Source: a virus. Taken from it: a stretch of 42,135 bases of DNA. The notes under the pieces are model-generated. The model made no database searches. It saw only the letters and a list, made by a program, of their open reading frames with translations, and was not told the origin of the DNA. The DNA is taken from IMG/VR virus record IMGVR_UViG_3300037156_000077, positions 1 through 42,135 of that record; one strand, 5' to 3'. Made by a program: the position numbers and the translations under genes. This document shows, piece after piece, positions 9,091 to 42,135 of this stretch (position 1 is the first letter of the stretch; every line of letters starts with the position of its first letter).

Positions 9091-9162
9091 TTGCACTGGC
9101 AGGATTCGAACCTGCGGCCTTCTGGTTATGAGCCAGACGCGCTACCACTGCGCTACAGTACG
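9091..9162 (-). tRNA. tRNA-Met (CAU), initiator-like
   Basis: A 72-base cloverleaf: acceptor CGTACTG/CAGTGCA, D arm GCGC-AGTGGTA-GCGC, anticodon stem TCTGG/CCAGA with loop CTCATAA (anticodon CAT), T arm GCAGG-TTCGAAT-CCTGC, discriminator A. The first acceptor pair is C1xA72, the hallmark of bacterial initiator tRNA. Two of the three anticodon-stem G:C pairs typical of initiators remain (the third is T:A), and position 11:24 is C:G as in elongators. CCA is not encoded. A candidate promoter ends a few bases before its 5' end. Confidence 0.9.
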
Positions 9163-9167
9163 GGCGG

Positions 9168-9195
9168 AAAATAACAGTTCCAGGCGGGATGACAA
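9168..9195 (-). promoter_or_regulatory. Candidate promoter of the tRNA and lysis operon, TTGTCA-16-TATTTT
   Basis: Minus strand: TTGTCA at 9195-9190, TATTTT at 9173-9168, spacer 16. The start point would fall at about 9161, next to the tRNA 5' end at 9162. It is back-to-back with a plus-strand promoter candidate 11 bases away. Confidence 0.5.
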
Positions 9196-9206
9196 GAAGA
9201 TTTCGC

Positions 9207-9234
9207 TTGCGTTCTGCTCGCGGTCGCTCAGAGT
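9207..9234 (+). promoter_or_regulatory. Candidate promoter of a structured RNA, TTGCGT-16-CAGAGT
   Basis: Plus strand: TTGCGT at 9207-9212, CAGAGT at 9229-9234, spacer 16. Individually weak, but it has the spacing shared by the other candidates, starts just before a row of hairpins and is divergent from the tRNA promoter. Confidence 0.35.
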
Positions 9235-9240
9235 CCCCAC

Positions 9241-9340
9241 GGCCAGAGATGGCCGATCCTGACTGGAAATCGGGGTGCAAGTGCCGATTTTGTCAGGGTA
9301 CAATGGGCCGCTCGTTTTCCAGTCACGAGCGGCCTTTTTT
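9241..9340 (+). ncRNA. Structured leader or small RNA with loop-complementary terminator (element A)
   Basis: Three hairpins follow one another: GGCC/GGCC at 9241-9254; CCTGAC/GTCAGG enclosing AAATCGG/CCGATTT at 9258-9297; and a terminator at 9306-9340. The terminator loop bases 9316-9325 (TTTCCAGTCA) are perfectly complementary to 9260-9269 (TGACTGGAAA) in the second hairpin. The two structures could therefore exclude each other or form a pseudoknot. The gene at 9369 starts 29 bases after the U-run, so this may be an attenuator, or it may be a free RNA of about 100 bases. Confidence 0.5.
9306..9340 (+). terminator. Intrinsic terminator
   Basis: Perfect nine-base stem GGCCGCTCG/CGAGCGGCC, 11-base loop and six T. 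It acts on the plus strand only; the minus-strand side has no T-run after the stem. Confidence 0.8.
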
Positions 9341-9368
9341 GTGCCCTGATCCTTAAACGCCAGGAAAT

Positions 9369-9575
9369 ATGAAAACACTGTCATCGCAAAAACGTGTGTA
9401 CGAGCCGAGATACTGGATCGGCCCTACCGGCAAAAAGTCTCCTTGCCGTGGCGAGGAGAGGCGCACCAGCAAAGAGGCTGAGGCCGATATTGAGCGATGG
9501 AAAAAGATTTTCGTCAGTTCCGATTTCGACTATGAGATTGTCGTTAGGACTGAATCAGTTTTTGCCATCCAGTAG
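9369..9575 (+). CDS. Small basic protein on the plus strand, 68 aa
   Basis: Starts MKTLSSQKRVYEPRYWIGPT and has a basic central part (GKKSPCRGEERRTSKEAEAD) and a beta-like end (DYEIVVRTESVFAI). AGGAAAT lies just before the ATG. It faces against both flanking operons and sits 29 bases after a strong terminator, so its expression would depend on read-through or on the structure of the leader. No family recognised. Confidence 0.5.
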   Translation: MKTLSSQKRVYEPRYWIGPTGKKSPCRGEERRTSKEAEADIERWKKIFVSSDFDYEIVVRTESVFAIQ

Positions 9576-9657: not shown

Positions 9658-9750
9658 GATCGCCGCCCGGCGCAGTTCTACGCGGGAACGTCCTGAACGT
9701 GAAACCGTATCCAAGAGAGCGGTGGATAAAATGGGACTCGGGCGGCGATC
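9658..9750. repeat. 12-base inverted repeat enclosing 69 bases
   Basis: GATCGCCGCCCG (9658-9669) and CGGGCGGCGATC (9739-9750) are perfect inverted copies. They lie just beyond the 3' end of the 1672-aa gene. No U-run follows on either strand, so this is not a standard terminator. It could fold a small RNA made from the promoter at 9617 or protect the 3' end of the late mRNA. Confidence 0.5.
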
Positions 9751-9762
9751 CCTCTGCCTCTC

Positions 9763-34064: not shown

Positions 34065-34092
34065 TTGCTATTCGTTCGAGAGCGTGGATAAT
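34065..34092 (+). promoter_or_regulatory. Plus-strand promoter candidate, TTGCTA-16-GATAAT
   Basis: TTGCTA at 34065-34070 and GATAAT at 34087-34092, spacer 16. A start near 34100 would make the mRNA begin with the 19-base sequence repeated at 34312. Confidence 0.55.
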
Positions 34093-34099
34093 GAGGCGT

Positions 34100-34330
34100 A
34101 CCCAAACTCAACCACCCAAAAATATGAACGCCACCGAATACACGATCCCCGAGCATTACGACACCAGCGGCATCATCAACGCCGACAGCGATCCAGCCGC
34201 AGAGTTTGCCATCTGGCAGGAGGGTTGCAAAAACGATCCTCAAACCTGGACCGGCAACGAGTTCGACCTCGCCGATTTCGAGGCGTATATCGACAGCCTG
34301 AAATAACGCTAACCCAAACTCAACCACCCA
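34100..34330 (+). repeat. Two copies of a 19-base A/C-rich leader sequence
   Basis: ACCCAAACTCAACCACCCA occurs at 34100-34118 and again at 34312-34330, in front of two consecutive genes. Neither gene has a Shine-Dalgarno site. It is probably a leader that aids translation. Confidence 0.6.
34124..34306 (+). CDS. Small acidic plus-strand protein, 60 aa
   Basis: Starts MNATEYTIPEHYDTSGIINA. It is rich in Asp, Glu, Trp and aromatic residues (FDLADFEAYIDSL). The start follows CAACCACCCAAAAAT. First gene of the plus-strand unit; no family recognised. Small acidic proteins of this kind can be host-takeover or inhibitor proteins, but this is inference. Confidence 0.65.
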   Translation: MNATEYTIPEHYDTSGIINADSDPAAEFAIWQEGCKNDPQTWTGNEFDLADFEAYIDSLK

Positions 34331-34376
34331 CGGCGCTCCGTGACAGGGAGCACCAAACAACGAACCAAACAAAAAT

Positions 34377-34739
34377 ATGAAACTCACTATCGCACCCTGT
34401 CCTGAAGGCTTCGGCCCCATGTCCTATCAAGATCAGCTCGCGGCATACCTGGACGCGCTGGCCTCCATTGGCTACATTCCCTCCCATGTGAACAACGGCG
34501 ACGGCTACGAGGTCACTCTTGACCGTGCTGCCGTGCTTTCCGAGGCGCTATCCTGCGACGAGGCGCACATCCGCTTTCATGCCCGTGCTAACGAAAAGCG
34601 GGCGTGGGTTTACATTGTGCTTGGCAACTCGCCGTCCGAACTCATGAGTGACTACGGCATTGTGAGCGACGAGTTCGACAAGGCGCTTGAAGCTGTCAGC
34701 GATGCCCTGGAACATCGCACGAACCTCTACACCGCCTAA
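34377..34739 (+). CDS. Hypothetical plus-strand protein, 120 aa
   Basis: Starts MKLTIAPCPEGFGPMSYQDQ; alternating helices and strands (LAAYLDALASIGYIPSHVNN; WVYIVLGNSPSELMSDYGIV). ATG follows CGAACCAAACAAAAAT. Composition is that of a folded, acidic cytoplasmic protein. No motif recognised. Confidence 0.65.
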   Translation: MKLTIAPCPEGFGPMSYQDQLAAYLDALASIGYIPSHVNNGDGYEVTLDRAAVLSEALSCDEAHIRFHARANEKRAWVYIVLGNSPSELMSDYGIVSDEFDKALEAVSDALEHRTNLYTA

Positions 34740-35171: not shown

Positions 35172-36730
35172 TTCCGTCCCTCCCACGCCTGGAGCTTGTA
35201 CCTTACGGAGTCAGCATCGTAGCAGTACTGGCAGTGAGAATCGTGCTTGATCAGCAATGCGTGACTCAATGCGCCACCAGCCTCCGCGATGAGCTTCCCG
35301 GCCTCGGTGAGCTTTTGGTCTTTCCACATGATCCCCTCACAAGCATCCGCATAACCGGTAGTGATTCGGGCTATTTCCGCGTCCTTCTCAGCCATCGCTG
35401 CGTTGTGGCTGGTGGTGAGTCGTCTCAAAAGCGCCTCTACGCCGTAGCGGTCCTCAGTGCCTATCCCGAATTGGAGGTGTGATCCAACCCGAAATATCTC
35501 ACACGCCTGATTCACCGTCGGCCAGTCCTTCGGCGCGGACTTGAGCGCGGCGAGTTCGGCCATGGCTTCACCGTATTCGGTTGTCAGGTTTCCGATTTGC
35601 GCTCGGGCGGCGGTGAGTTCGATGTCCAGCCGGACGGCAGCTTTACCATTATCAAGTGCCTCCTCCTTCCACGTGGCGGCTTCGGCCTGTGCTTCCCTCC
35701 ATCCTGTATTTGCGTATTCGGTCTGCTCTTTTTGTTGTTCCGCCTTTCCTTTCAGCCTCGCGATGGCTGAGGAGAAAATGGCGCGCAGTTCATCCGCTGT
35801 CTCCGCGTGATTGCGTGCGTACAAAATCTCATCATCGCTCGGCATCTCCACCGTTGCGAGGTAGGCGTCACCAGCCTCATGCTCCAGAGTCTCACACAGC
35901 ACTATGAGTTTTTCCATGAGCGTTTGAGGGCTGTCGTGCGGCCTCTCCAATAGGGTATCGGTGCGGGGGTGCTGCCGACATGGACCAAGATTCAACGGCC
36001 TGGCCATCGCGTGCCGGTCCTGGGTTTGATCGGCCTCCAGTTTCAGCGCGGCGAGTTCGGCCATGGCTTCACCGTATTCGGTTGTCAGGTTTCCGAACGC
36101 TTCCTTCCACCTCGCGGCTTCGGTGTCGCGAGCGAAGATATGCCTCAGTTTGTTCACTGCTTCCTTTGTCGTGAGGCTGTTCCGCCATGCGTCAACAATT
36201 TCGTCATCAACTACCGCCTCATCCGTGACCGCGCTGACGGTGGGGAGGTGGGCGGCGGGTGGTGGCGGAAAGTGTGACCAGAAATAATCGTTGATCGACT
36301 TTCGCTCGTCTGATGTTAACGGGTCCCAGTTCTCGATCATGGCCCTGAACTCTTCTTCCGGCGTGACCTTCGAGGCGTCGGGAGGCGGGGCGGGCTGTCG
36401 GTTTTGTGCTCTGGCCGCATCGTGGCAATCAAAGCACATCTTGCCAATGTTCGTGGATACAATACCGATGCGATCATGGCACACCACACATTTATCGTCC
36501 TCAGGTGGCAATCCCGGTAGGTCGGTTTGGGCAGGCTTATCCTCTGCCTTGTGCCGCCAGTGGGTGAATTTCCATGTGGGCGGATTAAGATATTGGCCCT
36601 CCAGTGACATCCACTGCCATTGATCGCGCTTTCCATCACGCTCAATGCCAGCGTCATCCTGGAGCCGAACCTCCACGCCCTCCGGCGGCGGGATGCTTGC
36701 TGGGGTCCATTCGTTGGTGTTCTCGTTCAT
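35168..36730 (-). CDS. Zinc- and coiled-coil protein with internal duplication, 520 aa
   Basis: The N-terminus MNENTNEWTPASIPPPEGVE with a second Trp-rich part (WRHKAEDKPAQ) resembles DUF551-like modules. Next is a zinc-finger-like CVVCHDRIG...MCFDCHDAA block. The remainder is coiled coil, in which GNLTTEYGEAMAELAALK occurs twice, encoded by two exact 52-base copies 501 bases apart. The C-terminus carries Cys/His residues (HDSHCQYCYDADS). ATG near 36730 follows CCAAACAGCACCACG. Unknown function; possibly replication-linked. Confidence 0.65.
   Translation of the reverse strand: MNENTNEWTPASIPPPEGVEVRLQDDAGIERDGKRDQWQWMSLEGQYLNPPTWKFTHWRHKAEDKPAQTDLPGLPPEDDKCVVCHDRIGIVSTNIGKMCFDCHDAARAQNRQPAPPPDASKVTPEEEFRAMIENWDPLTSDERKSINDYFWSHFPPPPAAHLPTVSAVTDEAVVDDEIVDAWRNSLTTKEAVNKLRHIFARDTEAARWKEAFGNLTTEYGEAMAELAALKLEADQTQDRHAMARPLNLGPCRQHPRTDTLLERPHDSPQTLMEKLIVLCETLEHEAGDAYLATVEMPSDDEILYARNHAETADELRAIFSSAIARLKGKAEQQKEQTEYANTGWREAQAEAATWKEEALDNGKAAVRLDIELTAARAQIGNLTTEYGEAMAELAALKSAPKDWPTVNQACEIFRVGSHLQFGIGTEDRYGVEALLRRLTTSHNAAMAEKDAEIARITTGYADACEGIMWKDQKLTEAGKLIAEAGGALSHALLIKHDSHCQYCYDADSVRYKLQAWEGRK
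35544..36096. repeat. 52-base exact direct repeat within a gene
   Basis: The same 52 bases occur at 35544-35595 and 36045-36096, 501 bases apart, which keeps the reading frame. They encode the repeated coiled-coil block. Recent duplication or gene conversion is inferred. Confidence 0.85.
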
Positions 36731-39283: not shown

Positions 39284-39340
39284 CTAAATCGGTTTCCTCC
39301 CGGTCAAATCGAAGGCCGGGGCGTCTTTAGGTTTGCTCAT
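39284..39340 (-). CDS. Possible leader peptide, 18 aa
   Basis: ATG overlaps the stop of the 284-aa gene (ATGA) and opens MSKPKDAPAFDLTGRKPI. It ends two bases before the -35 box of the next promoter. Too short to be certain. Confidence 0.25.
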   Translation of the reverse strand: MSKPKDAPAFDLTGRKPI

Positions 39341-40191
39341 TTGAGGGCCGCGCACTCGCGGAATGTGTTTAGCAGGGAATCACGATATTTGATGCGCTGA
39401 GCCTTGACGGCATAGGCAGAGGCATCGGCATAGGCATAGGCAGAGGCATCGGCATAGGCATCGGCATAGGCAGAGGCATAGGCATCGGCATAGGCAGAGG
39501 CATAGGCATAGGCATCGGCATCGGCAGAGGCAGAGGCAGAGGCAGAGGCAGAGGCAGAGGCAGAGGCATAGGCAGAGGCAGAGGCAGAGGCATAGGCATC
39601 GGCAGAGGCATCGGCATAGGCATCGGCATAGGCAGAGGCATAGGCATCGGCAGAGGCATCGGCCCGCAATTTTTTACACGCTTCGCGTGCTTCTAGAGCA
39701 CTCGCCTTATCGGTGATAGGGGCTAGTGCCTGGATCGTTGCCGCGCCTGCCAAACACAACTCATTCACCTTCTTGATTTTGGTGTTTTGAGCACGCCATT
39801 CCAGGCGCATTGGAGTGAGTTCTCGCACGGCCTTGTCAGCCATAAAATAAACGCGGCGAAGAGTCAATGCCGCATCTCCTCGCGAGTCAAGAAGCAAGGG
39901 GATGAGGGGGCGAAGCATTTCTGTGCGCTTAATGTCCGACTCCCACCAATTGCCGTCATTCAGCCGGATCGCCACACGGCGCAGAACACGACAAGCGCAT
40001 TCCATTTCATCAGTGGGTTTCTCCAGGCACTTACCCTTGCGGAGGGCATCGATTGTCGCAGCCTGAGCCATCACGCAGGCGGTCGTTTTGCCGTCCCCGA
40101 CACCGTTGCACATGATCAGCGGCGCGATGACAGGGTAAAATCCAGCGTAGGCCGGGAGGGATTCGGATTCGTTGCGTATTTCGTTTTTCAT
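39337..40191 (-). CDS. Protein with (Ala-Ser/Asp/Tyr)n repeat, 284 aa
   Basis: The N-terminal two thirds form a conserved-looking domain (VIAPLIMCNGVGDGKTTACV; ECACRVLRRVAIRLNDG; LRPLIPLLLDSRGDAALTL) that I associate with a phage protein family, not with a P-loop ATPase despite GDGKTT. From about residue 190 to 275 it is almost all Ala alternating with Ser, Asp or Tyr, built from GCC followed by TCT, GAT or TAT. A short normal tail (IKYRDSLLNTFRECAALK) ends it. Function unknown; the repeat may form fibres. Confidence 0.75.
   Translation of the reverse strand: MKNEIRNESESLPAYAGFYPVIAPLIMCNGVGDGKTTACVMAQAATIDALRKGKCLEKPTDEMECACRVLRRVAIRLNDGNWWESDIKRTEMLRPLIPLLLDSRGDAALTLRRVYFMADKAVRELTPMRLEWRAQNTKIKKVNELCLAGAATIQALAPITDKASALEAREACKKLRADASADAYASAYADAYADASADAYASASASAYASASASASASASASADADAYAYASAYADAYASAYADAYADASAYAYADASAYAVKAQRIKYRDSLLNTFRECAALK
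39410..39662. repeat. Hexanucleotide repeat GGCAGA/GGCATA/GGCATC
   Basis: About 42 contiguous six-base units on the plus strand, varying only in the last two bases. On the minus strand each is GCC plus TCT, TAT or GAT. The array is free of other codons. Confidence 0.9.
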
Positions 40192-40197
40192 GATCAA

Positions 40198-40237
40198 TAA
40201 AAAGCCCCCTCCAAATCGGGCCTGATCTGGAGAGGGC
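40198..40237 (-). terminator. Intrinsic terminator before the repeat-protein gene
   Basis: Minus strand: GCCCTCTCCAGAT pairs with ATTTGGAGGGGGC (13 pairs including wobble), eight-base loop, then TTTTTATT. The 284-aa gene starts immediately after. Confidence 0.75.
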
Positions 40238-40291
40238 GGGAATGCTTTCTGACTCTGGCGGAATAACTCCAGGCCCGGAGTCAGTTCGCAT
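40201..40291 (-). ncRNA. Leader or small RNA with kissing hairpins (element D)
   Basis: From a predicted start near 40291 the first hairpin is CTGACTC/GAGTCAG, whose loop carries CGGGCCTG (40277-40270). The terminator hairpin's whole eight-base loop is CAGGCCCG (40224-40217), its exact complement. The T-run TTTTTATT follows and the 284-aa gene starts nine bases later. This fits a kissing-loop attenuator or a small RNA. Confidence 0.5.
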
Positions 40292-40297
40292 TTGATG

Positions 40298-40325
40298 ATT
40301 GTACCCATCCGGCGCGCGGCGGCAA
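40298..40325 (-). promoter_or_regulatory. Promoter candidate, TTGCCG-16-TACAAT
   Basis: TTGCCG at 40325-40320 and TACAAT at 40303-40298 on the minus strand, spacer 16. It precedes element D. Confidence 0.6.
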
Positions 40326-41675: not shown

Positions 41676-42135
41676 GGGATTATTTCGATGATCGTCTTTT
41701 CGTCTTTGAAGTGCGATTCTTTGACTTGCTCCGTTTCGAGCTTGATGCGCCATGGCTCATCTCCAGGTATGAGCCCAGCGTGTCGGAGGCCGTCGAGCAG
41801 ATCCTTGCAACTTCCGGCGAAGTTGTCAGGGTCGAGGGGTCGCACGCGATGTCCCGTAAAGCGGACAGTAAGGCGCGGAATGCCTTGGACTGCTCCTTGT
41901 GCTGTTGCGCCCAATGCTGGCGTTTTGTGACGTTGAGGCTTGGCGTCCGGTAGTTTACCACCAGAGTTAAGGGTGATGAAAGCAGGCCCTGCGTTGGGGA
42001 AGAGTTCGCGGAGGCCGTCGAGCAGATCCTTGCAACTTCCGGCGAAGTTGTCAGGGTCGAGGGGTCGCACGCGATGTCCCGTAAAGCGGACAGTAAGGCG
42101 CGGAATGCCTTGGACTGCTCCTTGTGCTGTTGCGC
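41672..42135 (-). CDS. RusA-like Holliday junction resolvase, C-terminal part with duplicated segment
   Basis: The catalytic motif RPLDPDNFAGSCKDLLDGLR is followed by HAGLIPGDEPWRIKLETEQV and KESHFKDEKTIIEI, typical of RusA enzymes (acidic residues in DPDN and a KDLLDGL helix). A 225-base segment is repeated in tandem here, so the motif appears twice in the reading, 75 residues apart. The RusA-like N-terminus (RQHWAQQHKEQ) lies in another frame in both copies. The coding state is uncertain. The gene continues at 130-1. Confidence 0.6.
   Translation of the reverse strand, partial: ATAQGAVQGIPRLTVRFTGHRVRPLDPDNFAGSCKDLLDGLRELFPNAGPAFITLNSGGKLPDAKPQRHKTPALGATAQGAVQGIPRLTVRFTGHRVRPLDPDNFAGSCKDLLDGLRHAGLIPGDEPWRIKLETEQVKESHFKDEKTIIEIIP
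41787..42135. repeat. 225-base tandem repeat at the contig junction
   Basis: Bases 41787-42011 are followed by a second copy from 42012 to the contig end, which continues at 1-117 when the circle is closed. The period of 225 bases (75 codons) keeps the frame. Only a five-base CGGAG is shared at the copy border. Confidence 0.8.

Follow-up and report, generated by a model that had tools for sequence, protein, structure and literature searches.

Transcription attenuators, i.e., the leaders of amino-acid operons, riboswitches, and the antisense-controlled attenuators of plasmids, place a structured leader with mutually exclusive folds and an intrinsic terminator ahead of a gene, and normally act via pairing with the 5' arm of that terminator. 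The hairpins targeted by ANTAR proteins carry hexaloops with a conserved A and a conserved G. ANTAR-controlled leaders contain two consecutive hairpins, the second of which lies at the terminator (PMC8934654). Among bacteriophages, the put RNAs of HK022 (about 70 nucleotides, nt; two stem-loops; sequence in common) work on RNA polymerase as RNA alone and cause antitermination at distant terminators (PMC9378689), and the c4-type antisense RNAs of P1 and P7 are small RNAs that use short loop complementarity (PMC12197685). Here we describe two elements in IMG/VR virus record IMGVR_UViG_3300037156_000077, analysed over its entire 42,135 bp (hereafter the window) and belonging to a phage that probably infects a verrucomicrobial host: element A (9240-9340, plus strand), ahead of an open reading frame (ORF) of 68 amino acids (aa), and element B (40284-40199, minus strand), ahead of a 284-aa gene. 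From its sequence, we tentatively read A as a leader RNA that acts in cis and carries a conditional intrinsic terminator ahead of the 68-aa gene, one of two such elements together with B, and give this reading slightly less than an even chance.

Like classical attenuators, A and B would combine a structured leader, mutually exclusive folds, and an intrinsic terminator before a gene; unlike them, their pairing centres on the apical loop of the terminator (plus its 3' arm in A) and not mainly on the 5' arm, and they have no known ligand, clear leader peptide, or meaningful match to Rfam covariance models. They resemble the ANTAR-controlled leaders in having two consecutive hairpins with the second at the terminator; however, the 9-nt terminator loop of A departs from the two-hexaloop arrangement, and no ANTAR domain turned up among the window proteins searched. 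As with put, the pair would comprise short phage leader RNAs that are related, rich in hairpins, associated with different operons, and adjacent to terminators; unlike in put as described, one hairpin precedes the element's own terminator (PMC9378689). The likeness to the c4-type RNAs extends to small size and short loop complementarity, but in A and B the complement is part of the transcript itself, and B shows it again in a new sequence (PMC12197685). On layout and lack of an Rfam match, we file the elements as a new variant within the leader/attenuator RNAs.

The sequence-only reading of this DNA had pointed to ten complementary bases in A, and both sequence and coordinates proved right: the anti-loop TGACTGGAAA matches, as an exact reverse complement, all 9 nt of the terminator loop plus one stem base, and this 10-mer has no further exact copies in the window beyond the site and its complement. 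As that reading also held, the anti-loop sits in the 5' arm of a two-part hairpin (9258-9263/9292-9297 and 9267-9273/9284-9290, with a TGG bulge). A complement of the 9-nt loop arose in 7 of 20,000 dinucleotide-shuffled leaders of 99 nt, and in 10 of 20,000 at 100 nt. Beyond what had been noticed before, the complementarity continues into the 3' arm of the terminator, with 17 of 19 positions of 9251-9269 identical to the reverse complement of 9316-9334, a match reached by none of 5000 shuffled leaders. The leader-loop complementarity of A is real, and its origin by chance is unlikely. Since the longer match includes the 3' arm, a single alternative fold destroys the terminator; in folds of successive prefixes, a stretch further upstream (about 9222-9229) was also able to pair with that arm.

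The terminator itself has a perfect stem (9306-9315/9325-9334), a loop at 9316-9324, and six T residues at 9335-9340, and was passed over by a standard terminator scan in which loops were limited to at most 8 nt. Its stem is GC-rich and at least 7 bp long, with the T-run directly after it on the same strand, as is required of an intrinsic terminator. Terminators nearly identical to it (GGCCGCT...GCGGCCTTTTTTGTG) are present in three genomes from the same phylum, where they follow co-directional ORFs by a few tens of nt, which supports a genuine plus-strand terminator in A. The region can also be read as protein: an open frame (MADPDWKSGCKCRFCQGTMGRSFSSHERPFLCPDP) with C-x2-C-x10-H-x5-C spacing would encode a Cys-rich protein of 35 or 55 aa (9249- or 9189-9356, plus strand), in frame with the 68-aa ORF and 12 nt before it. 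We find this hardly credible and rejected it on codon usage, as its codon score (-13.9 over 35 codons) is wrong-frame-like, the 5th percentile of real genes being -0.4; furthermore, no family or homologue was found for it, and a perfect 10-bp stem followed by T6 would be unlikely in a coding region.

The same design occurs a second time in the window, a recurrence that the sequence-only reading had not seen. We scanned the strong terminators of the window and of all its relatives (described below) for loops complemented in the upstream leader. Among 73 sites in the stricter scan, three had a match of at least 8 nt, namely A, the terminator of B (40237-40199, minus strand), and a 7-bp stem in relative locus L110; in a wider scan of 162 terminator-like sites, matches of this length were confined to A and B. 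In both elements, a leader hairpin built on a CTGAC/GTCAG core is joined through a short linker (11 nt in B) to a terminator, and a gene follows closely. The CTGAC...GTCAG hairpin spans 38 nt in A and 36 nt in B, and the distance from leader hairpin through T-run is 83 and 86 nt, respectively. The pattern CTGAC-N(14-40)-GTCAG has two sites in the window, which are these two leaders. The terminator of B is the other strong terminator of the genome and likewise has a GC-rich stem of at least 7 bp with a T-run directly after it on the same strand. When both 100-nt leaders were shuffled in pairs (n = 20,000), the 9-nt complement of A recurred 10 times, the 8-nt complement of B 50 times, and the shared 5-bp stem word 11 times, the last of these tests having been picked after the sequences had been seen. 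The loop and anti-loop sequences of A and B are unlike, yet each fits its own partner, with cross-matches of only 5 and 4 nt. This pattern, seen in two sequences, is suggestive and not proof in that it would be expected if pairing rather than sequence were conserved, and the recurrence as B makes conditional terminators in cis-acting leader RNAs a better explanation than a lone small RNA or coincidence.

Table 1. Positions of elements A and B and of the neighbouring features in the window
Feature	Position	Strand	Remark
Element A, small upstream hairpin HP1 (CGGCCA gaga TGGCCG)	9240..9255	+	
Element A, leader hairpin (CCTGAC-TGG-AAATCGG ... CCGATTT-T-GTCAGG)	9258..9297	+	-17.2 kcal/mol alone
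Element A, anti-loop TGACTGGAAA	9260..9269	+	exact reverse complement of 9316-9325
Element A, extended complementarity, 5' side, antiterminator-like	9251..9269	+	to terminator loop and 3' arm
Element A, possible -10 GGGTACAAT	9296..9304	+	9-mer shared with the -10 ahead of B; weak, could be chance
Element A, intrinsic terminator (10-bp stem, 9-nt loop, T6)	9306..9340	+	
Element A, terminator loop TTTCCAGTC and first stem base	9316..9325	+	complement of 9260-9269
68-aa ORF, probable target gene	9369..9575	+	about 28-29 nt past the T-run of A; no known family
tRNA promoter TTGTCA-16-TATTTT, TG before -10	9168..9195	-	faces away from element A
tRNA-Met(CAT)	9091..9162	-	
Element B, promoter-like TTGCCG-16-TACAAT	40298..40325	-	shortly ahead of B
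Element B, leader hairpin (CTGACTC ... GAGTCAG)	40249..40284	-	
Element B, anti-loop CGGGCCTG	40270..40277	-	complement of 40217-40224
Element B, intrinsic terminator (14-bp stem, hexaloop AGGCCC, T5)	40199..40237	-	
Element B, terminator loop region CAGGCCCG	40217..40224	-	complement of 40270-40277, which lies within the 5' half of the leader hairpin of B
284-aa gene	39337..40191	-	ATG 7 nt past the T-run of B; alanine-rich repeats towards the C-terminal end

Three other accounts of the elements were weighed. A and B could be stand-alone small RNAs of about 90-100 nt that end at their terminators, in which loop-hairpin pairing would compact or dimerise the RNA, or the exposed loop would target other phage mRNAs. 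The promoter-like sequence of B would start an RNA about 7 nt ahead of its hairpin, and the exact 9-nt complement of the A loop, GACTGGAAA, occurs in three other minus-strand coding sequences where codon shuffles expect 0.18; these targets are nonetheless weak because about 2% of distinct 9-mers occur at least three times in these genes. A lacks a credible promoter, and both elements directly precede genes (ATG about 28 and 7 nt past the T-runs), such that we consider this account unlikely. At each of its three sites (2371, 4452, and 7656, minus strand), GACTGGAAA encodes Asp-Trp-Lys, and one copy falls close to the beginning of a small membrane protein (MHAPPEEPDWKDAVAGSLILGGMTLFLIIAFAACLRTP).

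A second account has an unconditional terminator in A that merely keeps stray plus-strand transcription out of the 68-aa gene, which would be driven from within the element (-10 TACAAT, 9299-9304) with an RNA start near 9311, i.e., without the 5' arm of the terminator. The top plus-strand promoter score of the intergenic region does fall at 9275-9304, and the same GGGTACAAT stands ahead of B; however, that score ranks only about 30th on the plus strand, its -35 matches at 3 of 6 positions, and the promoter-like site of B lies upstream of the whole element. As such a shield also leaves the loop complementarity and its recurrence in B unexplained, we judge it unlikely as well. Finally, since each CTGAC...GTCAG palindrome adjoins a GGGTACAAT box, the palindromes might be DNA operators for a phage repressor beside two GGGTACAAT promoters, with the RNA pairing incidental. 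The palindrome arms are 26-28 nt apart, though, the palindrome lies upstream of the box in A and downstream of it in B, and neither the loop/anti-loop pairing nor the terminators would be explained, which makes this account highly unlikely in our view.

For the conditional leader that we prefer, the following course is proposed. During transcription, the leader hairpin would fold first and hide the anti-loop, upon which the terminator would form and most transcripts would end there. A factor, be it a phage protein, a host elongation factor, the ribosome, or an antisense RNA, would open or capture the leader hairpin, and the freed anti-loop would pair with the terminator loop. In A, this pairing could extend into the terminator arm, and RNA polymerase would read on into the gene. 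The common CTGAC/GTCAG hairpin would let both genes answer one signal. We infer transcription across A, as well as the default state, the direction of switching, and the trigger. Predicted folding is compatible with a balance in A: the terminator fold (-61.1) and an alternative that disrupts it (-58.6) are near-equal, and an RNA ending exactly at 9340 and starting at or before 9218 is predicted to be about 60% in the terminator fold and 40% in the alternative. Both elements fold better than shuffled sequences (z-scores of -3.24 for A, 4th of 420 genome windows, and -3.74 for B).

Several points weigh against this proposal. An RNA of A that starts at or after 9228, or has its 3' end at 9345, is predicted to be essentially all in the terminator fold, and in B the terminator fold (-49.1 kcal/mol) has a large advantage in stability over the nested alternative (-22.5 kcal/mol). 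In B, only a kissing contact is therefore plausible, and a mechanism common to both elements would need such a contact or transient cotranscriptional pairing, of which the kissing contact is the likelier feature common to A and B. The loop exits the polymerase only at the U-tract, and its pairing may thus come too late to stop termination. The covariation rests on two copies in a single genome, no relative of A or B was found, and a promoter scan gave no credible plus-strand sigma70 promoter upstream of the leader hairpin of A. The bolder idea that A and B represent an undescribed class of phage RNA, in which the apical loop of a terminator kisses the preceding CTGAC/GTCAG hairpin and one phage or host factor switches termination on two operons, is one we entertain as possible but doubtful.

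The 68-aa ORF had been named as the target gene 29 bases downstream of A; its position is right and its codon score, in the range of real genes, is coding-like, and no homologue or known family was found for it, including by single-sequence search of viral contigs. Promoters had been described as back-to-back, 11 bases apart. The minus-strand half of that claim stands: the tRNA promoter has the second-best sigma70-like score on its strand and ends 5 nt ahead of tRNA-Met. On the plus strand, candidates before the leader hairpin are at background level (best score 5.6, genome rank about 250), and the spacing is right only on accepting TTGCGT at 9207 as a -35. What survives of the earlier interpretation is a plus-strand element with an intrinsic terminator before a probable gene and a non-random complementarity, strengthened by B; the divergent plus-strand promoter finds no support. 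A small membrane protein follows tRNA-Met, and the tRNA promoter serves an operon of both; by its sequence, with no family match, we infer this protein to be holin-like. Between the convergent 68-aa ORF and a 1672-aa gene lies a perfect 12-bp inverted repeat, GATCGCCGCCCG / CGGGCGGCGATC (9659-9751), with about 70 nt between its arms and no T-run, which folds better than shuffles (z-scores of -1.99 on the plus and -2.96 on the minus strand). Behind B, the first 39 codons of the 284-aa gene are coding-like, and an in-frame extension through B scores between coding and non-coding. Near the end of this gene, 39355-39720 holds about 19 overlapping tandem units of 12 or 18 nt that encode alanine repeats of (D/S)AYA type.

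The record itself looks complete, with what seems a minor assembly fold-back where it ends; the repeat of 1-124 at 41895-42018 (98%) is what a circular phage, or one with terminal redundancy, would be expected to show, and 41784-41910 also matches 42009-42135 (100%). Almost the entire gene set is on the minus strand. The window encodes a DnaB helicase, RecT, exonuclease VIII, a large terminase, and a major capsid protein of SU10 type; a further protein, related to one of phage C75C1, is probably the portal, judged by its size and its place beside the terminase. The nearest relative found, the 6.4-kb viral fragment L004, shares 63% identity in terminase, 65-66% in portal, and 56% in capsid; all others are distant, at roughly 24-36% in the main proteins. 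An alignment of terminases that included that of C75C1 led to 80 viral loci and one contig of an Opitutae metagenome-assembled genome (MAG), and a portal alignment to six more genomes of the Opitutae class; these distant relatives in genomes of Opitutae and its class are the ground for the probable host, and the structural proteins put the phage close to verrucomicrobial prophages. Related terminase, portal, and capsid genes occur in Opitutae-class genomes at G473:C4, G129:C1 (about 3.07 Mb), G211:C17, and G574:C20. Because these loci lie inside bacterial genomes, one of them in a 3.75-Mb contig, the relatives are probably prophages, and their lineage appears undescribed.

None of these relatives retains the element, and the L004 fragment stops short of it. 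Single-sequence searches of viral contigs with the 68-aa, 135-aa, 1672-aa, capsid, and terminase proteins returned no relatives. The pattern TGACTGGAAA-N30-60-TTTCCAGTCA had one match in viral contigs, an unrelated AT-rich phage hairpin. Searched against 387 genomes of the phylum, the element DNA matched through its terminator arm and short chance stretches only, and a stricter terminator pattern had no match in 188 genomes of the class. Two repeats elsewhere in the window may be recorded here. A near-perfect (98%) direct repeat of 55 nt, 35541-35595 and 36042-36096, 501 nt apart, lies within a 604-aa minus-strand gene. Small plus-strand genes at 34085-34380 have A/C-rich leaders without a Shine-Dalgarno sequence (AACTCAACCACCCAAAAATATGAA), with the leader sequence repeated at 34090-34118 and 34302-34330.

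The regulatory RNAs of phages of this bacterial group appear to have been little studied. Two elements in one phage, in each of which the terminator loop fits its own leader hairpin through a different sequence, suggest that termination may be governed by contacts between such a loop and its leader, and that two operons may answer to a single signal.
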